In this document: piece after piece, positions 2,543-27,662 of the stretch
How the letters are laid out: every line of letters starts with the position of its first letter
Position numbering within the stretch: position 1 is the first letter of the stretch
The notes under the pieces: generated by a model
Told to the model about the DNA's origin: nothing
The model's input: the letters and a program-made list of their open reading frames with translations, nothing else
The model's database searches: none
Assembly (NCBI GenBank): GCA_011176615.1
Contig: DUEG01000125.1
Location: 1 to 39,029 of the forward strand
Direction of reading: 5' to 3'
DNA: 39,029 nt
Source: Anaerolineae bacterium
GTDB taxonomy: Bacteria > Chloroflexota > Anaerolineae > Anaerolineales > UBA11858
Made by a program: the position numbers and the translations under genes

Positions 2543-3613
2543 ATGGAAATTCAGATTAATTCAAGAAAAATTGGCTCTAGTTATCCAACTTATTTTATTG
2601 CAGATATCGCTGCAAACCATGATGGAGATTTGGGGCGGGCGAAAATGCTCATTCGGTTAGCGAAAGACGCTGGGGCAGATGCCGCCAAGTTTCAGAATTT
2701 TCGTGCCCCGAAAATTGTATCGGATTATGGCTTCACATCCTTAGGTACCCAACTTTCGCATCAAGCAACGTGGAAGAAATCTGTGTATGAGGTTTATCAA
2801 GATGCTTCGATTCCGTTTGATTGGACGCCAACATTAAAAGAGACATGTGATCAAGTGGGGATTGATTATTTTTCTTCGCCCTATGATTTTGAAGCCATTG
2901 ACATGCTTGAGCCGTATATGCCTGCATATAAAGCAGGTTCCGGCTTGATCACTTGGATTGAAGCCTTAGAATATATGGCACAGAAGAACAAACCTTTGCT
3001 TATAGCAACAGGTGCTTCTGACCTCAGCGATGTTATCAGAGCAGTTAGAGCTGTATCTAAGATCAACAAAAAAATTGTTTTGATGCAGTGTAATACAAAT
3101 TACACGGGAAGTTCTGAGAATTTTGACCATCTGCACATCAATGTGTTAAAAACCTATGCAACATTGTTTCCCAATGTAATTCTAGGACTATCTGATCACA
3201 CGCATGGACATGCTGCTGTCCTGGGTGCGGTCACATTGGGCGCTCGAGTCGTTGAAAAGCATTTTACAGATGATAATGAACGAGAAGGTCCAGATCATAA
3301 ATTTGCGATGAATCCGGATTCTTGGGCGGAGATGGTAGCAAGAACTCGTGAACTTGAACGCGCATTAGGATCGACGGATAAATTTGTTGCTGAAAACGAG
3401 AAAGATACTGTGATTGTTCAACGGAGATGTCTGCGAGCAGCGCGCGATATCAAAGCAGGAGAGATTCTCACGCGCGAGATGCTTGAACCGTTACGTCCGA
3501 ATACCCCTGGCGCCATTCAACCATATGAACTAAGCGCGGTAATTGGCTTAAAAGTCTTGCGTGATATGCCGTTTGGTAAAGAGATGCGTTGGACAGATTT
3601 GGGCGCTGGATAA
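2543..3613 (+). CDS. NeuB-family nonulosonic acid synthase with SAF domain (copy 1)
   Basis: NeuB enzymes condense a 6-carbon sugar with phosphoenolpyruvate to give a nine-carbon 2-keto acid. This 356-residue protein has the NeuB TIM barrel (about 15-275) and a C-terminal SAF/antifreeze-like domain (about 293-356, RDIKAGEILT). Visible landmarks are ANHDGD (24-29), AKF (48-50), YKAGS (129-133), QCNTNY (182-187), GLSDHT (215-220) and EKHFT (238-242). The usual AEIGxNHxG acidic residue is Asp here (IADIAANHDG, D21), a conservative Glu-to-Asp change. Neu5Ac synthases typically carry TNxYPTP; this one has NTNYTG, so a Neu5Ac product is unlikely. GGGAGGA ends a few bases before ATG 2543. With pseB upstream and an SpsF-like gene downstream it resembles the SpsE/PseI role, but it is divergent. 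Confidence 0.88.
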   Translation: MEIQINSRKIGSSYPTYFIADIAANHDGDLGRAKMLIRLAKDAGADAAKFQNFRAPKIVSDYGFTSLGTQLSHQATWKKSVYEVYQDASIPFDWTPTLKETCDQVGIDYFSSPYDFEAIDMLEPYMPAYKAGSGLITWIEALEYMAQKNKPLLIATGASDLSDVIRAVRAVSKINKKIVLMQCNTNYTGSSENFDHLHINVLKTYATLFPNVILGLSDHTHGHAAVLGAVTLGARVVEKHFTDDNEREGPDHKFAMNPDSWAEMVARTRELERALGSTDKFVAENEKDTVIVQRRCLRAARDIKAGEILTREMLEPLRPNTPGAIQPYELSAVIGLKVLRDMPFGKEMRWTDLGAG

Positions 3614-9577: not shown

Positions 9578-10551
9578 GTCAGAATCCTGCAAAACGCATT
9601 CCTTATGTAGCGAAACCCGAAAGGGTTACGGTTGCAGTCATTACATACATCCCCTTTTTGGGAGGGTATTATGCTCAAAGCCTGGATGTGCTCAAGGTTT
9701 GTCTTAAGAGTATTTGGGAGAATACGGAACAACACTTTGATTTAATGATATTTGATAATGCAAGTTGCGAGGAAGTGCGAGCGTATCTTATTGATGAGCG
9801 CAATAAAGGTAATATTCAATATCTAATCTTATCCGATAAAAATATTGGGAAAGCGGGTGCTTGGAATTTTATTTTTCAGGCTGCACCGGGAGAATATATC
9901 GCGTATGCGGATAGTGATGTTTATCATTATCCCAAATGGTTGTCAGCGCTTGTCAAGGACATGGATTTGCTCCCGAAATTGGGAATGTTGACTGGAATGC
10001 CTCTACGTAGTTCGGAAGAGTATTCAACAGCCACGCTTGATTGGAGCAAAGCAAATCCTGATGCTTCTCTTGAGGTTGGTTCGTTCCTTCCATGGGAGGA
10101 TTTTTGGAAGCATGCACGATCTCTAGGCGCAGATGAGACAGAAATGCGTGCTCGTTATGCAGAAGGCGAAGATATCCGGTTGACTTATCAGCATAGACAG
10201 TTTTATGTTGGTGCAGGACATTTTCAATTTATGACGCGTAAGGATATTATCCAACAAGTATTACCAATTCCCTCAAGGCGCCCAATGGGTGAAGTTAGAT
10301 TATTAGATATTGCGTTGAATGATGCGGGTTTTCTCAGGTTATCAACCAAGGAATGGCATGTACAGCATATTGGAAATCAATTATCAGGTACATCTTTCGA
10401 GAGGGAATTGGGAAAACAGCCCTCTACAACAGGAAATCGAACGACTAAAAGAAAGAATAAATTTTTGAATTGGCATCCTGTTCGGCGAATCTTGCAAGGG
10501 ATATATCATTGGATTTTTAAAATTCTTTATATAGATCAGGAAGATAAATGA
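9568..10551 (+). CDS. Glycosyltransferase family 2
   Basis: A GT-A enzyme with DLMIFDNAS (58-66), SDKNIGKAGAWN (89-100) and the metal-binding DSD (115-117, AYADSDVYHYPKW). I choose TTG 9568 because a perfect AGGAGG (9556-9561) sits 6 bases before it. ATG 9532 lies deeper in the previous gene, has no such site and adds 12 poorly structured residues. The protein is then 327 residues. A basic C-terminal tail (KRKNKFLNWHPVRRILQG) followed by an aromatic helix suggests peripheral membrane binding. The donor is unknown. It ends in an ATGA overlap with the next gene, so the two are probably made together. Confidence 0.85.
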   Translation: MRVGQNPAKRIPYVAKPERVTVAVITYIPFLGGYYAQSLDVLKVCLKSIWENTEQHFDLMIFDNASCEEVRAYLIDERNKGNIQYLILSDKNIGKAGAWNFIFQAAPGEYIAYADSDVYHYPKWLSALVKDMDLLPKLGMLTGMPLRSSEEYSTATLDWSKANPDASLEVGSFLPWEDFWKHARSLGADETEMRARYAEGEDIRLTYQHRQFYVGAGHFQFMTRKDIIQQVLPIPSRRPMGEVRLLDIALNDAGFLRLSTKEWHVQHIGNQLSGTSFERELGKQPSTTGNRTTKRKNKFLNWHPVRRILQGIYHWIFKILYIDQEDK

Positions 10552-11972
10552 CAAAAAGAGTTTTTATCAGTGCAGATCATGGACTTGCGCTTATCTATTT
10601 TTTACAAAGCGATGTGATTTCCACATTGATAAAAGGTGGAACTGAGGTAATTTTGTTTACTGCGGGGTCTCTAAAAAGCAAAGTCAATGAGCGATTCGGT
10701 CAATCCGGATTGATCATCGAAGACCTCAGATTAGAGGCAGCCACAAAATATGCCCAGGAGGAACATGGCGCTATCCAATGGTGGCTAAACTTTTTCCGTC
10801 GGGCTGGGCCCTCTGCGCGAATGAACCTTGAGACTGTGAATAATTATGTTCATTGGATTGAAACAGAATCCAAAGGAATGCGGAAGAAAATCTTCCCGCT
10901 GGTTAAAGCAGGTGTATGGTTAATGCGTCATTCTCGTATCGTCAGGAAAATTCTTGTGAATATGCAAAATCAATTCACGCCTGATATCTATGGGGACTAT
11001 TTCGAGCGTTATAAACCAGACCTTGTCATCGGAAGTACTCCTGGTTGGCGGCTTGACCGTTACTTATTGCGGGAAGCAGCCGCCCGAGGAATACAAACGG
11101 CGGCTATTGTTCAAGGATGGGACAATCCAAGCAGCCATGCATTACCGGGGGCGAAGGTTGAATGGATTACTTGTTGGTCTCAACCCCAAAAGGAAGAATT
11201 GATTAATGGTTCTGATTGGCAATCCAATCAGATTAATATTGGAGGAATTCCAGCATATGATGGATATTTTGAGCAAAGATGGTTAATGCCAAAGAAGGAA
11301 TACTATCGATTGCATAATCTTGATCCAAATAAAAAGTTACTTGGTTATGCCTGTAGTTTTGTAACCTATTCACCTAATATCCAGAATATCAGAGCGCTTA
11401 TTGACCTGGTTGTATCTGATCGACTTGCAGAACCTTGTCAATTACTCATCCGATTACACCCAAATCATTTTACGAATGTTCCTCGTTGGGCAAATGAAAG
11501 GGAACAGATCCGTGAATTGGTTGGGGAGTATTCAGACGTTTATTTAGTTGAACCGGTACCTCTTGGAGAGGAATTTGGTTACTATTCCGGCGAGGATATG
11601 CCGGAGAAAACGTCAATGATGGCTTATTCGGATGTATTCCTGACAGTATATTCAACAATGGTGGTTGAGGCATCTATCCATGAACGACCAATTGTAAGCG
11701 TAACGATCAATTCAGAAACAGGATGGTCGGGGCAGTATTCTTTGAAGTTAACCGAAATTGGAAAATGGCCGACCCACTCCAGATTTCGTGCTTCAGGGGC
11801 GGGGTTGGTGGTCTCTGATAAGGATGCGTTATGTGATGCAATCAACACATATTTGCGAAAACCAAGCATTGATTTAGATGCCCAGCGAGCATTTATCAAA
11901 CAGGAATGTACCTTTACTGACGGGAGTTCAGGAAGGCGCACCGGTGAATACTTTCTTTCCCTTATAAAATGA
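10548..11972 (+). CDS. GT-B-like capsule/CDP-glycerol-type glycosyltransferase, unassigned family
   Basis: 474 residues, ATGA-overlapped at both ends. The second half has the GT-B pattern seen in capsule and teichoic-acid polymerases and 2-epimerase-like folds: CQLLIRLHPNHF (about 299-310) with the Hx(7)-type phosphate-binding histidine, and FLTVYSTMVVEASIHERPIVSV (about 364-385), where an acidic residue two turns after the ST motif would contact the donor ribose. The N-terminal half contains GSTPGWRLDRYLLREAAARGIQ and VQGWDNPSS, which recall the same families. No membrane helices or signal peptide. It may add a nucleotide-activated sugar or polyol phosphate. I cannot give a precise family. 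Confidence 0.65.
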   Translation: MTKRVFISADHGLALIYFLQSDVISTLIKGGTEVILFTAGSLKSKVNERFGQSGLIIEDLRLEAATKYAQEEHGAIQWWLNFFRRAGPSARMNLETVNNYVHWIETESKGMRKKIFPLVKAGVWLMRHSRIVRKILVNMQNQFTPDIYGDYFERYKPDLVIGSTPGWRLDRYLLREAAARGIQTAAIVQGWDNPSSHALPGAKVEWITCWSQPQKEELINGSDWQSNQINIGGIPAYDGYFEQRWLMPKKEYYRLHNLDPNKKLLGYACSFVTYSPNIQNIRALIDLVVSDRLAEPCQLLIRLHPNHFTNVPRWANEREQIRELVGEYSDVYLVEPVPLGEEFGYYSGEDMPEKTSMMAYSDVFLTVYSTMVVEASIHERPIVSVTINSETGWSGQYSLKLTEIGKWPTHSRFRASGAGLVVSDKDALCDAINTYLRKPSIDLDAQRAFIKQECTFTDGSSGRRTGEYFLSLIK

Positions 11973-15071: not shown

Positions 15072-16805
15072 ATGCAAAAGAATATACAATGTATCTTGAT
15101 AAAGCCAGAACACACAATACGGCAAGCAATGGAAGTTATCGAAAAAGCCCCCCACAATTGTGGCGTATCGGGCTTAGCAGTGGTTGTAGATGAAAACCAA
15201 CAGATGATTGGTGTAGTTACGGATGGTGATATACGGTCAGCGATCCTTCACCACCAAAGCCTTGATGATCAAGTCTCCATGATTATGACCTCTGACCCGA
15301 TTGCGGTCACAAATAATGCAAATCACATGAAAATGTATGAAGATGTTGTAACCATGTTGAATGGTAGTACCCGTATGTTAGATAGAGCAGCCGGAAAGAT
15401 TATTGTAGTGGACGAGGAACATAAAGTGGTTGATGTTGTTTCTTTCCTAAATCTAATTCAACAAGCAGACATTAAGACAAAGAAAATTGCGGTGATTGGG
15501 CTGGGATTCGTTGGTCTAACATTAGCGGTTGTCTTAGCAGATGTCGGCTTTACAGTTCTAGGTGTCGAGTTGCGAGATTCTGTACGTAAATCTTTGGAAG
15601 ATGGAAAACCACATTTCTACGAAGCAGGTTTGGCAAACCAACTTAGGTATCATATTGGGAAGCGTATGCAGATTGCTAAAGACCTTGCTGAAAGCGATTG
15701 TGATGTTTATGTGATTTCTGTGGGAACCCCAGTTGATTCAAGTAACCAGCCCATTCTTGATGATGTTCGAAAAGCAGTGAAAAGTATTGCACATGTGCTA
15801 AAACCAGATAACATCGTCATGCTTCGTTCTACTGTCCCAGTGGGAACTACGCGGGATTATGTGATTCCAATACTCGAAGAGATTTCTGGCTTAAGAGCAG
15901 GCAAGGATTTTTCGGTTGTCTTTGCCCCTGAACGAACAGTGGCGGGGAAAGCAATTAAGGAATTGCGAACCTTACCGCAAGTTATAGGTGCTACAGATTC
16001 CCAAGGCGCGGAGATTGCTGCGGCAATCTTCCGTGAAATGACAACAACAATTGTACGTGTTGATTCACTCGAAACTGCTGAGATGGTTAAATTGATCAAT
16101 AATAGTTTTAGGGATTTGATATTTTCTTTTTCAAACGAAATTGCTCTCTTATGCGAACATTGGAATTTAGATGCTTATCATGTTATAGAGGCAGCAAATG
16201 AAGGATATCCGCGGGATCCTGTGCCATATCCTAGCCCGGGTGTAGGTGGGGTGTGTTTGAAGAAAGACCCGCATTTGCTATATGCGAGTGCAAACGCGAT
16301 TGGACATCAATCGAACATATTTGGTATTAGCCGTCGTATTAATGAATTTATGCCAACGCATGTAATGCGAAAGTTCGAGAATTTTTGCCGATTAACAAAT
16401 CAAAACCCTGCCGAACTGAAGGTATTAGTTGTAGGGCTCGCGTTCAAAGGTTGGCCAGAAACTTCTGATATGCGGGATTCTACAGGCGTTGATTTAGTTA
16501 AAAATCTTCAAGAAATCGGTGTAAAAGTGCTGGGATATGATCCTGTTGTAAGTGATGATGAAATGCGTGCATTTATCGGGATTGACCCCGTAACCTTGGA
16601 GAAAGGGTTCATCTCTGCTAGTGCAGTTTTTGTGATGAACAATCATCCCTCTTATGAAGATTGGAACCTATATTCCTTATTGAGGTCGATGAATACGCCT
16701 GGGCTGTTCTTCGATGGCTGGAGAATGTTTCACGAGGAAGAAATTTTACGCATTCCTGGAATTAGTTATAGTACCGTGAGCCAAAATCTTGGTTGGCCTG
16801 AATAA
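15072..16805 (+). CDS. CBS-domain pair fused to UDP-sugar 6-dehydrogenase (WecC/Ugd type)
   Basis: 577 residues in two parts. Residues 1-130 form a CBS pair (ILIKPEHTIRQAMEVIE, VVDENQQMIGVVTDGDIR). Residues 137-577 form a complete UDPG/MGDP dehydrogenase: GLGFVG loop at 143-148, AEMVKLINNSFR with the catalytic-type Lys, and GVGGVCLKKDP with the catalytic Cys, then the C-terminal UDP-binding domain (VVGLAFKGWPETSDMRDS). It oxidises C6 of a UDP-hexose or UDP-HexNAc to a uronic acid in two NAD+ steps. The CBS part is of the type seen fused to sugar-1-phosphate nucleotidyltransferases such as PtmE in legionaminic acid loci; on a dehydrogenase it is unusual. CBS pairs bind adenine nucleotides, so allosteric control is plausible. 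AAAGGA lies 9 bases before ATG. Confidence 0.87.
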   Translation: MQKNIQCILIKPEHTIRQAMEVIEKAPHNCGVSGLAVVVDENQQMIGVVTDGDIRSAILHHQSLDDQVSMIMTSDPIAVTNNANHMKMYEDVVTMLNGSTRMLDRAAGKIIVVDEEHKVVDVVSFLNLIQQADIKTKKIAVIGLGFVGLTLAVVLADVGFTVLGVELRDSVRKSLEDGKPHFYEAGLANQLRYHIGKRMQIAKDLAESDCDVYVISVGTPVDSSNQPILDDVRKAVKSIAHVLKPDNIVMLRSTVPVGTTRDYVIPILEEISGLRAGKDFSVVFAPERTVAGKAIKELRTLPQVIGATDSQGAEIAAAIFREMTTTIVRVDSLETAEMVKLINNSFRDLIFSFSNEIALLCEHWNLDAYHVIEAANEGYPRDPVPYPSPGVGGVCLKKDPHLLYASANAIGHQSNIFGISRRINEFMPTHVMRKFENFCRLTNQNPAELKVLVVGLAFKGWPETSDMRDSTGVDLVKNLQEIGVKVLGYDPVVSDDEMRAFIGIDPVTLEKGFISASAVFVMNNHPSYEDWNLYSLLRSMNTPGLFFDGWRMFHEEEILRIPGISYSTVSQNLGWPE

Positions 16806-17912
16806 ATGATTGACACGAACTCATCCAATCTAAATTCATATGCTGTGATTATGGCAGGTGGACAAGGGAGTCGTTTGTGGCCCTTGAGCAGGTCAAACTT
16901 CCCTAAACAATTCTTGTCCTTGGGAATTGAAGACAGGAGTCTCTTGCAGGCTGCTGTCGAGAGGGCAAAGAAAATCGTTGGGTCTATGGACCGTATCATT
17001 GTTGTAGCACGCAAAGAGCAAGAAGACCTTGTTCGTGAACAATTACCCGATATTCCAGAATTAAACCTTTTACTTGAACCGGTTAGCAGGAACACAGCAG
17101 CATGTATCGGATATGCGGCTTTTAATTTGCTAAAAAGAGACTCAAATGCTGTGATGGCGGTATTCCCTGCGGATCACTTGTATAAGAATGAGGAGCCATG
17201 GATTGAAACAATAAAAACCGCACTCATTTTCGCCCAATCTTCAGAATACTTGGTTACGATTGGTCTTATCCCTGAATTTCCATCGCCAAATTACGGCTAC
17301 ATACAGAAGGGTGAGCCAATCCAGATAAGTGAAAAGAACTCAGTTTTCAAAGTGGTCAAATTTGTAGAAAAGCCGGAAATATCCGTTGCTGAAAAGTATG
17401 TTAAATCTGGTAAATATTTATGGAATACAGGAACATTTTGTTGGAGGGCGGATTCATTTCTAGAAACGCTGAAATCTTACCTTCCAGCCCATTATCAGGG
17501 TTTCCAACGAGTGATGGATGTTCAGAAACATGAAGATAAGTTTTTATCGATGTATCAGTCGCTGGAAAATATTTCCGTGGATTATGGTGTGATGGAGAGG
17601 GCAGAAAAAGTAGCAGTTGTCATGGGGAAATTTGAACGCATTGATCTTGGTAATCTACTTAATTTAAAAGCGATATACCCATCAGATAAACACGGAAATA
17701 TGCTTCATGGTCAATCAATCTGTTTCAAAGGAAAAGATAATATTATCTTTTCGCAGGAATCAAACGATCAATTAACTGTCTTATATGGGCTTTCTAACAT
17801 GGTCGTTATTCATATGGAAGATGTTGTTTTCGTATGCCCACAATCATCAGTAAATGAAATTAAAGCGCTAATTGGAAACCTCAAAGCGGAAGGGTTGAGT
17901 AAGTTTCTATGA
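16806..17912 (+). CDS. manC: Mannose-1-phosphate guanylyltransferase (type II, no isomerase domain)
   Basis: 368 residues starting directly after the previous stop. The nucleotidyltransferase loop GGQGSRLWPLSRSNFPKQ is at 18-35. RNTAACI, FPADHLY and KVVKFVEKPE follow in the order expected for GDP-mannose pyrophosphorylases. The C-terminal cupin phosphomannose isomerase domain of long ManC proteins is absent; a left-handed helix-like tail ends the protein. The usual WSDVGSW stretch is replaced by ERIDLGNLLNL, so a GDP-mannose product is likely but not certain; another hexose-1-phosphate is possible. GDP-mannose would serve mannosyltransferases or be a source of deoxyhexoses. The ATGA overlap couples it to the HAD phosphatase. 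Confidence 0.82.
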   Translation: MIDTNSSNLNSYAVIMAGGQGSRLWPLSRSNFPKQFLSLGIEDRSLLQAAVERAKKIVGSMDRIIVVARKEQEDLVREQLPDIPELNLLLEPVSRNTAACIGYAAFNLLKRDSNAVMAVFPADHLYKNEEPWIETIKTALIFAQSSEYLVTIGLIPEFPSPNYGYIQKGEPIQISEKNSVFKVVKFVEKPEISVAEKYVKSGKYLWNTGTFCWRADSFLETLKSYLPAHYQGFQRVMDVQKHEDKFLSMYQSLENISVDYGVMERAEKVAVVMGKFERIDLGNLLNLKAIYPSDKHGNMLHGQSICFKGKDNIIFSQESNDQLTVLYGLSNMVVIHMEDVVFVCPQSSVNEIKALIGNLKAEGLSKFL

Positions 17913-18568
17913 ACTCAAAATGGGTAATTGTATTCGATTGGGATGGAACATTGATTGATTCATTACCTTACAAAATCCAAAACGCAAGCCTATTATTTGC
18001 CCAACGATTTGGGGTTGAGGAAGAGCGTGTAAGGAATGCTTACAGACTACATTCTGGTATCCCGCGTAGACAGCTCTTTGATGCAATATGTGCGAACCTT
18101 TCGCTGCCACCTTTGACAGATGATACATTTTCCCAACTAAGTAAAAAGTTCTCGGATGTCAATCGCCATGTAATTTCCAAATTGAAAGTCCCGGATGATA
18201 CGATAAACACTTTAACAGCACTGAAAGAGAAGCAATATTCTCTCTTTATTTCCACCGCAGCCGCACAAGAAGAAGTATCCTATTTAGCGAGAAAATTAGG
18301 TGTATCCTTTTATTTTACCGAGGTACTTGGTTCGAAAGATGGGTTTACTAAGGGACCAGTGCATATAGCATATCTTCGAGAAAAGTATGGATATCCTGAT
18401 GAAAAATTTATTTTCGTAGGAGATGAACCAAACGACGTTCTCTTGGGAAAACAAGCGGGTATCTTGACTGCTGTGCGCCTAGGATCTCATGATGAAAAAA
18501 CTTTAAAATCCGCAGCCCCGGATTTTATTATCCACACGCTGTTCGAATTAATAGATATCCTAAATTAA
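17909..18568 (+). CDS. HAD-family sugar phosphatase (C1 cap), candidate nonulosonate-9-phosphatase
   Basis: 219 residues with all HAD motifs: DWDGT (D10 nucleophile, D12 acid/base), a helical C1 cap (about 20-90), FISTAAA (motif II Ser/Thr), the motif III lysine in GSKDGFTKGP, and FVGDEPNDV (motif IV acids). It sits immediately before a NeuB and a NeuA gene. Animals and Bacteroides make Neu5Ac or KDN through a 9-phosphate that a HAD enzyme removes. The HAD-NeuB-NeuA order here fits that plan, unlike the phosphate-free bacterial Neu/Leg/Pse routes. The fold is certain; the 9-phosphate role is inference from context. Confidence 0.8.
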   Translation: MNSKWVIVFDWDGTLIDSLPYKIQNASLLFAQRFGVEEERVRNAYRLHSGIPRRQLFDAICANLSLPPLTDDTFSQLSKKFSDVNRHVISKLKVPDDTINTLTALKEKQYSLFISTAAAQEEVSYLARKLGVSFYFTEVLGSKDGFTKGPVHIAYLREKYGYPDEKFIFVGDEPNDVLLGKQAGILTAVRLGSHDEKTLKSAAPDFIIHTLFELIDILN

Positions 18569-18624
18569 ACTTAGGGATTGATTAAGAAGGAGTATGAACA
18601 ATTTATATTTCAGGAGTAACACAT

Positions 18625-19578
18625 ATGCGAACTGTAATTGCTGAATTATGTCAAAACCATAATGGCGATCTTACATTATTAAAGGAAATGGTATGGGCTG
18701 CAGCAGAATCTGGAGCAACATATGCCAAGATTCAATCTATGCTTGCTGATGATTTAACAACCCGTGAGCGGTTTGAAGAAGGACGATGGGAAAATGGTGT
18801 TCAAGTTGCAATTAAACGACCCTATCTATCTGAATACAACCGGTTAAAACCAATGGATTTAGATGATGATGCACATTATTTATTCGCAGAGGAGTGTGTA
18901 AAAGCGGGTATCAAACCTCTCACCACTATATTTTCAAGGTCTCGGATTCCATTTATAAGCAGCCTGGGATGGGATGCAATTAAAGTAGCCAGTTATGATT
19001 GTGCCAGTTATCCAATGATCGAAGAATTAAAGGAACAATTTTCTCATTTATACATTTCGACTGGTGCGACTTTTGACCATGAGATTGAAAAAACATCAAA
19101 CATATTAAAAGGGCATAGTTTCTCTCTTTTGCATTGTGTTACTATTTACCCGACCCCGATGAATGAATTGAACTTAGCGCGTTTGGATTATTTGAAACAA
19201 TTCACGCAATCGGTCGGATTTAGTGATCACAGTTTGGTCTCACGGGATGGGATAAAAGCCTCGGTCGCCGCGATGGCTTATGGCGCGGATGTAGTTGAAA
19301 GGCACTTTACCATTCTTCCGCCAGACCAAACAAGAGATGGTCCTGTTTCGATAAATTCTGAACAATTGGCTGAATTGGTAAATTTCGCAAAAATGAGTAA
19401 TGAAGACCTACTTGATTATGTGGTTCGCGAAATACCTGAATTTGATACCATGATCGGTAAAGTACAGCGACAATTAAGTCATGAGGAAGAACTTAATCGG
19501 GATTATTATCGGGGAAGGTTTGCTAGTAAAGTTGGAGATGAAGTGATATACAATTGGCAAGATCGTCCTGTATTTTAG
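18625..19578 (+). CDS. NeuB-family nonulosonic acid synthase, short form without a complete SAF domain (copy 2)
   Basis: 317 residues. The barrel landmarks are present: AELCQNHNGD (6-15), YAKIQ (33-37), KVASYDC, HCVTIYPTP, GFSDHS and ERHFT. The protein stops after YYRGRFASKVGDEVIYNW, where other family members enter the SAF/antifreeze-like domain, so only a stub remains. In Neisseria NeuB an SAF arginine reaches into the partner's active site and contacts the N-acetyl group. Losing the SAF domain therefore suggests a substrate without that group (inference). The residue two before the barrel Tyr is Thr, whereas Neu5Ac synthases have Asn (TNxYPTP). AGGAG lies 8 bases before ATG. The HAD phosphatase is upstream and NeuA is 11 bases downstream. 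Confidence 0.85.
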   Translation: MRTVIAELCQNHNGDLTLLKEMVWAAAESGATYAKIQSMLADDLTTRERFEEGRWENGVQVAIKRPYLSEYNRLKPMDLDDDAHYLFAEECVKAGIKPLTTIFSRSRIPFISSLGWDAIKVASYDCASYPMIEELKEQFSHLYISTGATFDHEIEKTSNILKGHSFSLLHCVTIYPTPMNELNLARLDYLKQFTQSVGFSDHSLVSRDGIKASVAAMAYGADVVERHFTILPPDQTRDGPVSINSEQLAELVNFAKMSNEDLLDYVVREIPEFDTMIGKVQRQLSHEEELNRDYYRGRFASKVGDEVIYNWQDRPVF

Positions 19579-19589
19579 ATAGGTGAACT

Positions 19590-20318
19590 ATGAATGTTTT
19601 AGGTGTAATTCCCGCAAGAGGGGGCTCAAAATCAGTGCCGCGTAAGAATCTAACATTGATTTTTGGGCGTCCATTAATTGCCTTTACCATTGATGCAGCA
19701 AAGCGTAGTCATTACATTACACATTTTGTGCTATCGTCAGAGGATGATGAGATTATCTCAATTGGGCGAAAGTACGGTGCTCCTGTTCCCTTTAAAAGAC
19801 CCGCAAAATTGGCTACAGACAATGCGCCAACTTTACCTGTTGTACAGCATGCAGTACGAGAGTTAGAAACCCAAAATAGGCTCACATTTTCTTATGTTGT
19901 GCTTTTACAACCGACTACTCCAATGAGGCGACCAGAGGACATTGATAATGCAGTGGAAAAGTTGGTTAATACGGAAGCGGATTCCGTTATCTCTGTTTGT
20001 GATGTGGATGCCTATCACCCTGCAAGGATGCGTATGATTGTTGATGACCAGTTGATAGAATTACCGATAAAAGAGCCGCGCGAGATGGCGCGTCGTCAAG
20101 ATTTACCCAAGATTTATATTCGCAATGGTGCAGTGTATGCAGTTCGTCGCCAAGTTTTGATGGAGCAGAATAGCATGATTGGTCAAGTCAGTCGTCCTTA
20201 TATCATGCCAGTAGAACGCTCAGTAAATATTGATAGTAAATTAGATTTGCTTCTGGCTCAGTTATTAATGCACGAAGAAGACTACCAACACATTCCTAGG
20301 ATTAATGAAATTGCATAA
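19590..20318 (+). CDS. neuA: CMP-nonulosonate cytidylyltransferase, NeuA family (copy 1)
   Basis: 242 residues. The CTP-binding P-loop-like motif IPARGGSKSVPRKN is at 7-20. LLQPTTPMRRPEDID and IYIRNGAVYA (the YxxNGA-type sugar site) follow, then a C-terminal VNIDSKLDL stretch with the metal-binding acids of the family. It activates a 2-keto-3-deoxy acid with CTP to give the CMP-sugar used by sialyltransferase-like enzymes. It lies 11 bases after NeuB copy 2 and most probably uses that enzyme's product. The following dehydrogenase starts inside its last 14 bases, so the three genes form a tight unit. The length matches stand-alone CMP-sialate synthetases, with no C-terminal esterase domain. 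Confidence 0.88.
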   Translation: MNVLGVIPARGGSKSVPRKNLTLIFGRPLIAFTIDAAKRSHYITHFVLSSEDDEIISIGRKYGAPVPFKRPAKLATDNAPTLPVVQHAVRELETQNRLTFSYVVLLQPTTPMRRPEDIDNAVEKLVNTEADSVISVCDVDAYHPARMRMIVDDQLIELPIKEPREMARRQDLPKIYIRNGAVYAVRRQVLMEQNSMIGQVSRPYIMPVERSVNIDSKLDLLLAQLLMHEEDYQHIPRINEIA

Positions 20319-21279
20319 GAAACCGCTCCGCATAATCCTTGCTGAGGAATCGAGTTTTAGCCAGGAGGGCATACAAGCCCTAGCGGAACTTGGAAAGTTG
20401 GATACTACAAACCTCACACAGGAGGAATTGGTCGAGCGAATCCATAATTACGATGTACTTGTGCTCCGTTTAGGATTGTGTGCGGACAAACCCTTGTTTA
20501 TGGCAGGTAATCGGTTGAAAGTGATTGTTACACCGACTACTGGATTAGACCATATCGATTTAGAAGTGGCAGAACAGAAAGGAGTAACCGTTCTCAGTCT
20601 GAAAGGGGAGCGTGCATTCCTTGATCAAGTCTACTCGACCGCTGAACATGCTTTTGGTTTGCTTCTCGCATTGCTTCGCAAGATACCTTCGTCCTTCGAT
20701 GCAGTTAAGCAGTATCAATGGCGAAGAGACCTTTTTCGGGGGAGAGAGTTGGATGGGAAGGTTCTTGGTTTAATTGGTTGCGGGAGGTTAGGAACGATGA
20801 TGGTACGCTACGCAACCGCTTTTGGTATGGACGTATTGGTTTATGATCCTTATCAAAAGCAACTGCCAGAGATGATAACGCTTTGTTCTTCTCTTTATGA
20901 CCTTCTCAGTCGTAGTGATGTTGTTTCTCTTCATATTCCGCTCAATGAGGAAACTAGTGGTATGCTTTCTCGCCAGGAATTTGAATGGATGAAATCAGGT
21001 TCGTATTTAATTAACACTTCACGAGGAGCAGTCATTGATGAACAAGCGCTTTTAGATAACCTCATTTCTGGGAAATTAAACGGCGCGGCGCTAGATGTAT
21101 TGTGTGATGAGCATTTGATTGGAAAAAATCAGGAGAATCCCTTAATTGAGTATGCTAAAGAGCATGATAATCTAATTATTACGCCCCATATCGGGGGTGC
21201 TGCATACGAATCTGTACATAAAGCCGATATGTTTATCATTGATAAATTAAAAAAATGGTTGTTAGAAAATGGTTTCTGA
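20305..21279 (+). CDS. D-isomer-specific 2-hydroxyacid dehydrogenase (copy 1)
   Basis: 324 residues with the full family set: NAD loop GCGRLG (158-163) and catalytic R240 (NTSRGAV), E269 and H295 (TPHIGG). Relatives include 3-phosphoglycerate and hydroxypyruvate dehydrogenases. The C-terminal ACT or ASB domain of serine-pathway SerA is missing, and the gene overlaps neuA by 14 bases, so a housekeeping serine role is unlikely. It could supply a 2-hydroxyacyl group (for example D-glycerate or D-lactate) for sugar decoration, or act on the 2-keto acid itself; both are speculation. A second enzyme of the same family sits at 32835, also directly after a NeuA-like gene. Confidence 0.82.
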   Translation: MKLHKKPLRIILAEESSFSQEGIQALAELGKLDTTNLTQEELVERIHNYDVLVLRLGLCADKPLFMAGNRLKVIVTPTTGLDHIDLEVAEQKGVTVLSLKGERAFLDQVYSTAEHAFGLLLALLRKIPSSFDAVKQYQWRRDLFRGRELDGKVLGLIGCGRLGTMMVRYATAFGMDVLVYDPYQKQLPEMITLCSSLYDLLSRSDVVSLHIPLNEETSGMLSRQEFEWMKSGSYLINTSRGAVIDEQALLDNLISGKLNGAALDVLCDEHLIGKNQENPLIEYAKEHDNLIITPHIGGAAYESVHKADMFIIDKLKKWLLENGF

Positions 21280-21507: not shown

Positions 21508-24917
<3,410 letters not shown>

Positions 24918-24944: not shown

Positions 24945-25697
24945 ATGGAAAAACTAGAAGTCCTTGCTTTGATTCCTGCAAGAGGAGGATCTAAGAGTAT
25001 CCCTCGGAAAAATATCAAACCTCTCGCTGGCTTTCCTTTGATCGCTTATAGCATTGCAGCCGGAATCGCTGCGGAGACGGTTACGCGTGTTATTGTTTCG
25101 ACAGAAGATGAACAGATTGCTAAGATTGCTAAGTCTTATGGCGCAGAGGTGCCATTTTTACGTCCTGCAGAGTTCGCGCTTGACAATACGCCGGATCTGC
25201 CAGTTTTTGAGCATGCTTTGAAATGGCTGCAAGAGAATGAACAATATGAGCCTAATATTATTGTTCAATTACGTCCTACTTCGCCATTTAGAAGGGTTTG
25301 GCATATAAATCAAGCAGTGTTTAGATTGATTGAACATCCGGAAGCGGATTCGATTCGGACTGTGTGTGTTCCCTTCCAAAACCCATACAAAATGTGGCAG
25401 ATTTCGCCTGAAGGTTACATGAAGCCCTTACTTAAAACAGAAGGTGCGGAACCTTATAATATGCCTCGTCAGGCTCTTCCTGATGTTTATTGGCAAACCG
25501 GATACGTGGATGCGGCTTGGTCGGATACAATACGAAAAAAGAATTCAATGACAGGAGATTATATCCTGCCACTTGTCATTAATTCTACGGAATGGGTGGA
25601 TATTGACTCTGTAGATGATTGGAAAAGGGCGGAACAACTTTTACTGAGCGGGGCAATTAGTTTTGATGAGTTAGGTTTTTGTATAACGAAGGATTGA
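24945..25697 (+). CDS. neuA: CMP-nonulosonate cytidylyltransferase, NeuA/LegF-like (copy 2)
   Basis: 250 residues with LIPARGGSKSIPRKN (9-23), VQLRPTSPFRRV (the LQPTSPLR-type motif), the sugar-site stretch YWQTGYVDAAW and WVDIDSVDDW with acidic metal ligands. In YWQTGYVDA the usual NGA is TGY, which is common in the branch that handles legionaminate-like and related sugars. It differs clearly from the copy at 19590, so the two probably activate different sugars. It is followed 63 bases later by the NeuB-TIM fusion gene, its likely partner. The start has only a weak ribosome-binding site. Confidence 0.86.
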   Translation: MEKLEVLALIPARGGSKSIPRKNIKPLAGFPLIAYSIAAGIAAETVTRVIVSTEDEQIAKIAKSYGAEVPFLRPAEFALDNTPDLPVFEHALKWLQENEQYEPNIIVQLRPTSPFRRVWHINQAVFRLIEHPEADSIRTVCVPFQNPYKMWQISPEGYMKPLLKTEGAEPYNMPRQALPDVYWQTGYVDAAWSDTIRKKNSMTGDYILPLVINSTEWVDIDSVDDWKRAEQLLLSGAISFDELGFCITKD

Positions 25698-25760
25698 AAA
25701 CGCACGCAGGTGCAGGCCCGGATATTTTATTAAATAATGAATTCTCCAAAGGAGATTGAA

Positions 25761-27662
25761 ATGCCTGTAATTAAAATTGGCGATCGATTAGTGGGTGATG
25801 GTACCCCTACGTATATTATTGCAGAGATCGGTGTAAACCATAATGGTATTTTGGAATATGCATTTGAGTTAATTGATGCCGCGGTTGACGCAGGTACAGA
25901 TGCGGTTAAATTCCAAAAGCGTAAATTGGACCAGATATACCCCAAAAAATATTTAGAAAACTCAAATATTGGCGAGAAGAATCTTAATTATCTATTGCCA
26001 ATTCTTCAACGTGTTGAGTTATCTGATGAGGATTATTTTAAGATTGTTGAGTATTGTAAGGAGAAAGGTGTTACTTTCTTGTGCTCTGCGTTTGACACTG
26101 AAAGTGTAGATTTTATTGATTCTCTGGGTGTCCCTGCTTTCAAGGTTGCCTCTGCGGATATGATTAATCTTCCGCTCCTAGATTACCTTGTAACCAAAGG
26201 GAAACCATTAATTGTCTCAACAGGAATGTCCAGGATGGAGGAAGTGGATATCACAGTAAATTTCCTTAAAAAGAGAGACGCTGAATTCGCACTTTTGCAT
26301 TGCAATAGCACGTATCCGGCTGCTTTCGAGGATATCAATTTGCGATTTATGAATCGATTGCGGGACTATGGGGTGCCTGTGGGATATTCAGGACATGAAA
26401 GAGGCATTGCGGTTTCGACAGTTGCATCAGCACTTGGGGCAAGCATCATTGAGCGTCATATAACCCTTGATCGAACCATGGAAGGACCTGACCATGCCGC
26501 AAGTTTGGAACCTCATGGTTTCAAGAAAATGGTTCGTGATATTCGGCAAGTGGCAAGTGCTTTGGGAACGGGTCAGGAAAAATACATGTCCAGGGGAGAG
26601 ATTTTGAATCGTGAAGTGCTTGCAAAAAGCCTTGTCGCGAAAAGACGGATTGAACCAGGGGAAAGAGTTACACCTGGGATGGTTTCTGTGAAAGGGCCTG
26701 GACAAGGGCTCTCGCCACAACGATACACGGACTTGCTGGGCAAGAAAATTCAAAGAGTTATCGAAGAAGATGAGCCTTTCTTACCAAAAGATTTGGGAGT
26801 TACTATTACATTAGATGTTGAGCATACCCTGCCCATGATTTGGGGATTTGTTGTGAGATTTAACGATTATAAGGGAGTTTTAAAACATAAACCCAAGTTG
26901 TTGGAATTTCATTTAACTGACAAAGATCTGGATGAAGAATATGCTAACGAGAAACTGGATATGCAATTGGTTTTACATGCACCTGAATTCTGGTCAAATC
27001 ATTTGGTTGATTTATGTACGCGCGATAAAGGTCATCGGCAGGCATCGATTGATTTGATTCAGAGAGCTATCGATGTAACGAGAAAGATAGCCCCATATTT
27101 CAAAGGAACGCCGAAAGTAATTGTCCACCCTGGGGCTGCGAGCCTTGATCAACCCGAGGATGATGTCAGATTTTTATATGAGAACCTACGATATTCAGTT
27201 GAAGCCATAGATTTTGATGGGATTGAGTTCTTGCTGGAGAATTTACCGCCAAGACCCTGGTATTTTGGCGGGCAATGGTTAACAAATGTGTTCATGGATA
27301 CCTTTGAGATCAAAGAATTTCTTGATGAGATGGGTCTGAAGGTTTGTTTTGATACATCACATAGTAAATTATATTGTAACTATGCTCGAAAGGATTTTTA
27401 TGATCAGGTTAAAGTGATTCTTCCTTATGTATCTCATTTGCATCTATCTGATGCTGCCGGTTTAGATGGTGAGGGCTTGCAAATTGGTGAAGGGACGATA
27501 GATTGGATGGAGTTTTTCAGGATCGCTAAAAATTATCATGGGACAATGATTCCTGAAATTTGGCGTGGTCATCAAAGAGATGGAGAAGGATTTATCATTG
27601 CGATCAATCGTTTGTCTGAAGCATATTTTAAGGTGGTAGATGAGCAATCAGACAAACGCTGA
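25761..27662 (+). CDS. NeuB-SAF synthase fused to a TIM-barrel sugar isomerase/epimerase domain (copy 3)
   Basis: 633 residues from ATG 25761, chosen because AAAGGAG ends 6 bases upstream; ATG 25737 covers that site. Residues 1-270 are a full NeuB barrel: AEIGVNHNG (21-29), AVKFQ, FKVASAD, HCNSTYP (180-186), GYSGHE and ERHIT. Residues ~285-345 are an SAF domain (SLVAKRRIEPGE). Residues ~350-633 are an AP_endonuc_2/xylose-isomerase-like barrel with candidate metal ligands in VHPGA (H456), LLENLP (E493), FDTSH (D531, H534), HLHLSD (H559, H561) and IPEIW (E599). The synthase makes a nonulosonate; the second barrel could isomerise the sugar precursor and hand it over. Standard NeuB enzymes end near residue 345-360, so the extra 280 residues are remarkable. 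Confidence 0.9.
   Translation: MPVIKIGDRLVGDGTPTYIIAEIGVNHNGILEYAFELIDAAVDAGTDAVKFQKRKLDQIYPKKYLENSNIGEKNLNYLLPILQRVELSDEDYFKIVEYCKEKGVTFLCSAFDTESVDFIDSLGVPAFKVASADMINLPLLDYLVTKGKPLIVSTGMSRMEEVDITVNFLKKRDAEFALLHCNSTYPAAFEDINLRFMNRLRDYGVPVGYSGHERGIAVSTVASALGASIIERHITLDRTMEGPDHAASLEPHGFKKMVRDIRQVASALGTGQEKYMSRGEILNREVLAKSLVAKRRIEPGERVTPGMVSVKGPGQGLSPQRYTDLLGKKIQRVIEEDEPFLPKDLGVTITLDVEHTLPMIWGFVVRFNDYKGVLKHKPKLLEFHLTDKDLDEEYANEKLDMQLVLHAPEFWSNHLVDLCTRDKGHRQASIDLIQRAIDVTRKIAPYFKGTPKVIVHPGAASLDQPEDDVRFLYENLRYSVEAIDFDGIEFLLENLPPRPWYFGGQWLTNVFMDTFEIKEFLDEMGLKVCFDTSHSKLYCNYARKDFYDQVKVILPYVSHLHLSDAAGLDGEGLQIGEGTIDWMEFFRIAKNYHGTMIPEIWRGHQRDGEGFIIAINRLSEAYFKVVDEQSDKR

Follow-up and report, generated by a model that had tools for sequence, protein, structure and literature searches.

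A packed set of six genes from an Anaerolineae bacterium (15072-21279 of the window, that is, of the whole 39,029-nucleotide stretch of DNA that was analysed) may tentatively be read as one operon for a CMP-activated nonulosonate, formed from PEP and an anionic sugar. The best candidate for this sugar is a hexuronic acid, which would give the product a second carboxylate; as a whole, this reading is possible rather than probable. The NeuB of the operon belongs to a separate clade of sialic-acid-type synthases, with invariant residues of its own, a confidently modelled fold and recurrent partner genes. These partners point to an acidic nine-carbon sugar, with a sugar acid as its possible starting material, and not to the KDN route through phosphates that is already known.

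Gene content and origin of the operon

The operon includes a HAD phosphatase, NeuB, NeuA and three partners (Table 1). The first three had been recognised as consecutive genes in a sequence-only reading of this DNA, and they are confirmed as open reading frames on the forward strand with profile matches far past chance level. That reading was silent on two conserved flanking partners, the CBS-dehydrogenase fusion and the D-2-hydroxyacid dehydrogenase (HADH). The mannose-1-phosphate guanylyltransferase that it placed upstream is indeed ManC-like, although its TIGR01479 match is below the cut-off, and the order CBS-dehydrogenase, ManC, HAD was found again in a Myxococcales genome.

Table 1. Genes of the operon and motifs of its NeuB, with positions in the window
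Feature	Position	Strand	Properties
CBS domain/nucleotide-sugar 6-dehydrogenase fusion	15072..16805	+	577 aa; Pfam CBS E=5.5e-9; UDPG_MGDP_dh N/central/C domains
ManC-like mannose-1-phosphate guanylyltransferase	16806..17912	+	368 aa; TIGR01479 E=2.6e-84, under curated cut-off; NTP_transferase E=1.3e-38
HAD phosphatase, C1 (phosphoglycolate-phosphatase-like) type	17909..18568	+	219 aa; HAD_2 E=3.7e-22; 4-base overlap with ManC
NeuB without SAF, distinct clade	18625..19578	+	317 aa; PF03102 E=1.4e-48; AF2 pLDDT 96.7
NeuB signature segment K64-R65-P-Y-x-x-E70-x-x (protein 64-72)	18814..18840	+	R65, E70 invariant 43/43
NeuB C-terminal motif N291-R-D-Y-Y-R-G-R298-F, replaces start of SAF	19495..19521	+	Y294, R298 invariant 43/43
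NeuA/PseF-type CMP-nonulosonate cytidylyltransferase	19590..20318	+	242 aa; PseF TIGR03584 E=3e-46, under cut-off; CTP_transf_3 E=1.4e-17
D-2-hydroxyacid dehydrogenase (HADH)	20305..21279	+	324 aa; 2-Hacid_dh_C E=1.2e-51; 14-base overlap with NeuA

Around the operon, the window carries further sugar and sulfate genes and forms a large polysaccharide cluster. No close relatives of the operon's NeuB were found in 400 genomes of the phylum, nor in 101 relatives, whereas a second long NeuB of the window (25737-27662), a fused protein in which SAF is present, has copies of 74-79% identity in relatives. The operon was therefore probably acquired from elsewhere, and vertical inheritance within the phylum was rejected.

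The NeuB clade and its invariant residues

The window NeuB matches PF03102 and its catalytic residues are invariant, which places it in the NeuB family. Its score against the N-acetylneuraminate synthase equivalog TIGR03569 (164.8 bits) is below the curated cut-off of 399.65, and no SAF domain was matched in the profile search, so the architecture is not that of a canonical NeuB/PseI. The earlier remark that the protein ends before a complete SAF domain is correct, but this is a clade-wide trait: all 43 members of the clade alignment, from archaea, SAR11, Prochlorococcus, other bacteria and tailed phages, lack SAF. They are 38-66% identical to the window NeuB, an Ectothiorhodospiraceae homologue being put at 67%, and form one group in the tree (split support 0.87/1.0, with BT1714 left out of the set). 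The cellular proteins have 313-328 aa, and the phage versions terminate directly after YYxGRF. A truncated or decaying gene is ruled out, since the homologues end alike and the AlphaFold (AF2) model is confident over the full length, up to the last block of the C-terminal tail. A single-protein scan of viral contigs, with patterns that are not conserved, gave no match.

Across the clade, R65, E70, D238-G239, Y294 and R298 are invariant. In 59 other NeuB proteins used for comparison, the matching columns seldom or never hold E70, G239, Y294 or R298, D238 is common to both sets, and the K64-E70 segment corresponds mostly to a gap or to other residues, R65 itself mostly falling in the gap. In a pairwise alignment the R65 segment lies near N74 of nmNeuB, in a gapped loop within residues 70-85, the segment governing C4-C6 specificity (PMC7371886). 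It is likely, judging from the sequence, that the NeuB substrate is anionic, because invariant basic residues sit in the part that maps to this segment. The HCVTIYPTP sequence, which had been contrasted with TNxYPTP of Neu5Ac synthases, is present, but the contrast is weak: 53 of the 59 comparison NeuBs have Ser at the Asn column. The Asn is therefore a feature of the Neisseria type and not a family rule, and HCVTIYPTP was dropped as a substrate marker.

Partner genes and the routes they suggest

In the sequence-only reading, NeuB would condense PEP with mannose-6-phosphate (or ManNAc-6-phosphate), the HAD would remove the 9-phosphate and NeuA would form CMP-KDN or CMP-Neu5Ac; R65 would bind the phosphate, and elsewhere unlinked phosphatases would replace the HAD. 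The HAD gene directly before NeuB in the window, the HAD gene after NeuB in locus L040 (42% identity), the nearby ManC and the invariant arginine of the C4-C6 region are all consistent with this. However, a HAD adjoins NeuB in only 2 of 36 subfamily loci, and a close relative of it is present in 2 of 34 subfamily genomes and found nowhere in the other 32, so that the expected conservation of HAD with NeuB does not hold. Homologues mostly lacking the HAD gene was an outcome that the sequence-only reading had itself named as refuting, and by that standard the 9-phosphate route is disfavoured for this operon. The HAD class also differs from that of the KDN-9-P phosphatase to which it had been likened: its nearest NCBIfam model is phosphoglycolate phosphatase (below cut-off), its closest solved structure is 2hsz, and no KdsC-type or 3e81 match was found for it. 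Likewise, the SAF-less NeuBs of Bacteroidetes, which adjoin KdsC-type HADs matching 3e81, are placed inside the ordinary NeuB clade, apart from the window clade, and the conserved CBS-dehydrogenase, HADH and LarA are left unexplained by the 9-phosphate route. In Prymnesium, a Kdn-9-P synthetase has no identified phosphatase and unlinked phosphatases are argued to substitute (PMC6200933). Such phosphatases could substitute here too, and the 9-phosphate route therefore keeps its standing, as a rather unlikely explanation. The earlier interpretation is partly supported: the HAD-NeuB-NeuA string, the missing SAF, the link to ManC and a likely anionic substrate stand, while its 9-phosphate route fares poorly.

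Full-length homologues of the CBS-dehydrogenase fusion are present in seven subfamily genomes (42-46% identity) and in four more (32-43%), two of these four beginning at query residue 28-34; none was found in plasmids or in 100 relatives, which also lack the clade NeuB. A dehydrogenase lies no more than 6 kb from NeuB in 15 of 36 subfamily loci, but in none of the 20 loci used for comparison (Fisher p=0.0003, for loci that are not independent). ManC is that close in one of 36 subfamily loci, and L153 has a ManC with a beta-helix domain at the matching place. These 6 kb counts miss more distant partners, for example the CBS-dehydrogenase-ManC-HAD string 11-15 kb from NeuB in L045.

Besides this fusion, the recurrent partners of the clade are NeuA-type cytidylyltransferases and an alpha-hydroxy-acid enzyme, either HADH or LarA. 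A NeuA/CMP-transferase adjoins NeuB in nearly all cellular clade loci, and the window NeuA finds its best relatives among the NeuAs encoded at loci of this clade, LarA-fused ones among them (about 50%). Within 6 kb of NeuB, HADH occurs in 8 and LarA in 6 of 36 subfamily loci, never both in one locus. The window HADH has the NAD-binding domain of the D-2-hydroxyacid dehydrogenase class, and the R/E/H catalytic positions are kept in the NeuB-linked copies. The same type is found in L044, L050, L052, L064, L065, L067 and L069 and in 15 phage loci; in phages it stands a few genes upstream of NeuB (15 of 19 loci). L114, a comparison locus, has an HADH that belongs to a different type.

HADH near NeuB in phages, and an enzyme class that suits a 2-keto acid, would also fit a route in which the NeuB product is reduced at its 2-keto group, giving a 3-deoxy-nononic acid that LarA would then invert, with no glycosidically linked nonulosonate. 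This is very improbable, given that the CMP-transferase beside the cellular NeuBs needs the 2-keto (hemiketal) form and that in the phages a KdsB-like transferase lies some 5 to 10 kb upstream.

In Thaumarchaeota, the LarA racemase domain is fused to NeuA. Its PHPYAGFSGGxK and TGTH motifs are intact, and LarC, the only cofactor gene searched, is present in all seven genomes with the fusion versus none of nine others; motifs and LarC together identify LarA-type racemases. The nearest models of these domains are malate and lactate racemases. Alpha-hydroxy acids are the substrates of LarA enzymes, one group of which occurs in a gene context of uronic acids (PMC7583248); the NeuA-LarA fusion was not found in the published LarA work searched. 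Among GT-B neighbour proteins, 19 of 24 have a GxGHxxR motif, and these neighbours have MurG/MJ1255-like matches only, with none to the PseG model.

Alternatively, NeuB might make an ordinary non-phosphorylated nonulosonate, with HADH or LarA supplying lactate or glycerate as a decoration and the CBS-dehydrogenase serving a different residue of the polysaccharide, for which it would make a uronic acid. The setting in a polysaccharide cluster and the racemase models nearest to LarA agree with this, as does comparison locus L111, where the genes for a SAF-bearing NeuB and a NeuC-like protein adjoin a NeuA-HADH pair of this type and a dehydrogenase is missing. Nevertheless, no dedicated acyltransferase was seen adjoining this pair, the LarA domain is joined to NeuA, the phages that retain HADH together with NeuB have no general polysaccharide set, and the invariant basic residues are unexplained. 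This alternative is rather unlikely.

In the preferred reading, from a hexuronic acid, the CBS-dehydrogenase would oxidise a nucleotide sugar at C6; this could be GDP-mannose, which would match the neighbouring ManC, or possibly UDP-HexNAc. The hexuronate would be freed from the nucleotide, here by the HAD acting on the sugar 1-phosphate and elsewhere, by conjecture, perhaps by the GT-B protein with GxGHxxR. NeuB would condense the hexuronate with PEP to a 3-deoxy-nonulosonate retaining the C9 carboxylate, R65 binding the negative group of the sugar and the YYxGR298F tail taking over the role of the missing SAF arginine, and NeuA would convert the product to the CMP sugar. The C8 hydroxyl, alpha to the C9 carboxylate, would be the site of action of HADH or, in Thaumarchaeota, of LarA. 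Several findings count against this. R65, aligned to N74 within a gapped loop, is as compatible with a 6-phosphate as with a carboxylate, SAR11 loci have neither the CBS-dehydrogenase nor HADH/LarA, and the phages have no dehydrogenase. Given the gene content of L111, HADH is no sure sign of a C9 carboxylate. The dehydrogenase itself scores best against UDP-ManNAc dehydrogenases and not GDP-mannose dehydrogenase. It is more doubtful that the pathway is widespread, with Thaumarchaeota, Prochlorococcus, other bacteria and phages all joining a hexuronic acid and PEP into a 3-deoxy-nonulosaric acid (C9 carboxylate) whose C8 is adjusted by HADH or by the nickel-dependent NeuA-fused LarA. The SAR11 members may have only the synthase step in common with it.

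If true, a different acidic nine-carbon sugar is the product of 'sialic acid synthesis' genes in phages and in several of the most abundant microbes of the sea, and its pathway includes a hydroxyacid dehydrogenase or a nickel enzyme. Genomes can be re-annotated immediately by the signature of the clade (RPYxxE and YYxGRF, SAF missing) and, even with a wrong substrate guess, how NeuB works without the SAF arginine poses a clean mechanistic question.

Comparison with known systems

The window NeuB shares the TIM-barrel NeuB fold with Neisseria NeuB (1xuu/1xuz; Foldseek E about 1e-19) and keeps its PEP and metal residues (E7, K35, Q37, K120, H202, E225, H227 and D238). Neisseria NeuB combines PF03102 with SAF, whereas the window NeuB, 27% identical, has the RPYxxE segment and the YYxGRF tail instead of SAF and therefore lacks Arg314 of the Neisseria enzyme. 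The SAF arginine is held to be essential in Neisseria NeuB. The top structural match is Leptospira NeuB 6ncs (E=1.4e-20; solved chain of 290 aa; 28% identity).

The Bacteroides-type KDN-9-P layout (phosphatase PDB 3e81/3e8m) likewise has a SAF-less NeuB adjoining a HAD near sugar genes. Its HAD is of the KdsC type (C0), however, and that of the window is of the C1 type; unlike in the window, there is no CBS-dehydrogenase or HADH at the Bacteroidetes loci.

Thaumarchaeal NeuA and NeuB have been annotated as ordinary sialic acid synthesis (PMC8397731). The genes reported there in Nitrosopumilus relatives are presumably of the same kind as this clade; the clade, the NeuA-LarA fusion and the partners are not described in the available part of that paper. 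With the LarA superfamily of nickel-pincer-nucleotide 2-hydroxyacid racemases and epimerases, the Thaumarchaeal proteins have the Lar_N domain, the motifs and LarC in common, and they differ from it in the fusion of the LarA domain to NeuA.

Gene content around the SAF-less NeuB

The HAD, NeuB and NeuA open reading frames called in the sequence-only reading are present as described, with matches to HAD_2, NeuB and PseF/NeuA cytidylyltransferases far beyond chance. Likewise, profile searching found no SAF domain in this NeuB, whereas the 641-aa NeuB of the window has a SAF match. The three genes are tightly packed with three others, in a MAG of 2.1 Mb (83 % complete).

Coordinates of the six-gene cluster and of other genes in the window
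Feature	Position	Remark
CBS-nucleotide-sugar dehydrogenase	15072-16805	
ManC	16806-17912	
HAD	17909-18568	4-base overlap with ManC
NeuB, SAF-less	18625-19578	
NeuA	19590-20318	
D-2-hydroxyacid dehydrogenase (HADH)	20305-21279	14-base overlap with NeuA
Third NeuB-type gene, full length	2543-3613	after PseB/RmlD-like genes
CDP-glycerol glycerophosphotransferase-like	10548-11972	474 aa
Second NeuA	24945-25697	adjoins next gene
NeuB + SAF + xylose-isomerase-like TIM barrel	25737-27662	single 641-aa protein

Relatives carry copies of the 641-aa NeuB that are 74-79 % identical; for the third NeuB-type gene, the nearest relatives found are just ~37 % identical. A TauE-like exporter, a sulfate adenylyltransferase/APS kinase fusion and a number of sulfotransferase-like genes (21508-24094, 11969, 29315, 30215, 37945) probably represent a sulfated polysaccharide cluster.

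A separate NeuB clade and its partners

A search of 101 relatives and 400 genomes of the phylum turned up no close relative of the SAF-less NeuB. A DNA-motif scan identified an IMG/VR contig protein with 50 % identity, and this pair, used as query, yielded 36 loci in cellular genomes and 20 on viral contigs. Among the organisms with a copy are Ectothiorhodospiraceae (67 % identity), Thaumarchaeota (53-61 %), Woesearchaeota, Hadesarchaea, Myxococcales, Elusimicrobia, SAR11, actinobacteria and Prochlorococcus. Intact cellular copies are all 313-328 aa, start-site uncertainty aside, and the tree sets the clade apart from all other NeuBs (split support 0.87/1.0). A search of open-licence papers on NeuB without SAF, nonulosaric acids and NeuB combined with partner enzymes found no description of the clade or its pathway; because of that coverage, this is not proof of novelty.

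Genes up to 6 kb from NeuB were surveyed for partners at 36 loci of the subfamily, including the window, and at 20 comparison loci from relatives. Cytidylyltransferases are present in at least 32 of the 36 and GT-B proteins in 22. Nucleotide-sugar dehydrogenases occur in 15 subfamily loci versus none of the comparison loci (p=0.0003, although the loci share ancestry), HADH in eight versus two, and LarA in six versus none. Most of these dehydrogenases have an N-terminal CBS domain; the fusion is found in 11/30 subfamily genomes, and in none of 100 relatives and no plasmids. In Woesearchaeota (L155, 8684-10682), HldE- and GmhA-like heptose genes adjoin the CBS-dehydrogenase and NeuB. Homologues of the CDP-glycerol glycerophosphotransferase-like protein, a candidate glycosyltransferase of the NeuB system, occur in loci L038, L153/L045 and probably L039 and L042, immediately following NeuA in L038 and L042.

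HADH and LarA never occur together in subfamily loci. HADH is joined to NeuA through a methyltransferase domain in L069, and in Thaumarchaeota the NeuA C-terminus carries a fused LarA with its catalytic motifs kept; LarC is present in 7/7 genomes with this fusion and 0/9 others. Marine Thaumarchaeota NeuA/NeuB have been interpreted as sialic acid synthesis (PMC8397731).

On tailed-phage contigs, one with a tail-sheath-like gene (L080), HADH lies 1-3 genes upstream of a NeuB terminating at YYxGRF, with a KdsB-like cytidylyltransferase farther upstream. These IMG/VR contigs (L075-L092) also encode a HisC-like aminotransferase, and L088 and L092 additionally a HAD-nucleotidyltransferase fusion. 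Phage contigs L035 and L036 have shorter SAF-less NeuBs (269-277 aa), directly after a DUF115/Maf-like protein and after a similar fragment, respectively.

Candidate substrates

Seven residues are invariant in the 43-sequence clade alignment (R65, E70, D238, G239, S242, Y294, R298); E70, G239, Y294 and R298 seldom or never occur in the comparison NeuBs, most of which have a gap at R65. The AlphaFold model (mean pLDDT 96.7, >90 through the C-terminal tail) best matches Leptospira and Neisseria NeuBs. In Neisseria NeuB, residues 70-85 are assigned as the C4-C6 specificity region (PMC7371886), and contact residues include Asn74 and Arg314 of SAF (PMC6795526). At this segment the clade has an invariant RPYxxE, and its YYxGRF tail, likewise invariant, takes the place of the SAF start. 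These motifs support a negatively charged sugar substrate, without indicating which.

A hexuronate is tentatively favoured, since a C6 dehydrogenase and two unrelated alpha-hydroxy-acid enzyme types, HADH and LarA, associate with NeuB, although the reading is somewhat short of probable. The product would have a C9 carboxylate, making the C8-OH part of an alpha-hydroxy acid. One LarA group has a uronic-acid context (PMC7583248). Weak points count against a hexuronate: comparison locus L111 has the same NeuA-HADH pair alongside NeuC and a SAF-bearing NeuB, and SAR11 loci have neither the dehydrogenase nor HADH/LarA. It is rather unlikely that HADH and LarA serve a substituent.

The HAD and a proposed 9-phosphate route

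The HAD, taken earlier as a sign of a 9-phosphate (KDN-like) route, is not a steady partner of NeuB. It is of C1 type, phosphoglycolate-phosphatase-like; close relatives occur in 2/34 subfamily genomes, and a HAD is near NeuB in 2/36 subfamily and 0/20 comparison loci (ManC in 1/36 subfamily loci). In L040 the relative (42 % identity) adjoins NeuB; the other belongs to L045, a Myxococcales locus, whose genome has CBS-dehydrogenase, ManC and HAD in the window's exact order on the same contig as NeuB, 11-15 kb away from it. The HAD is thus tied to the ManC/dehydrogenase arm no less than to NeuB. A 9-phosphate route is considered rather unlikely. In Bacteroidetes (L173-L186), a SAF-less NeuB recurs together with an SDR, a KdsC-type HAD and a sterol-desaturase-like membrane protein. 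The best solved match of these HADs is the Bacteroides KDN-9-P phosphatase (3e81), and the adjoining NeuBs, unlike the window clade, branch among ordinary NeuBs.
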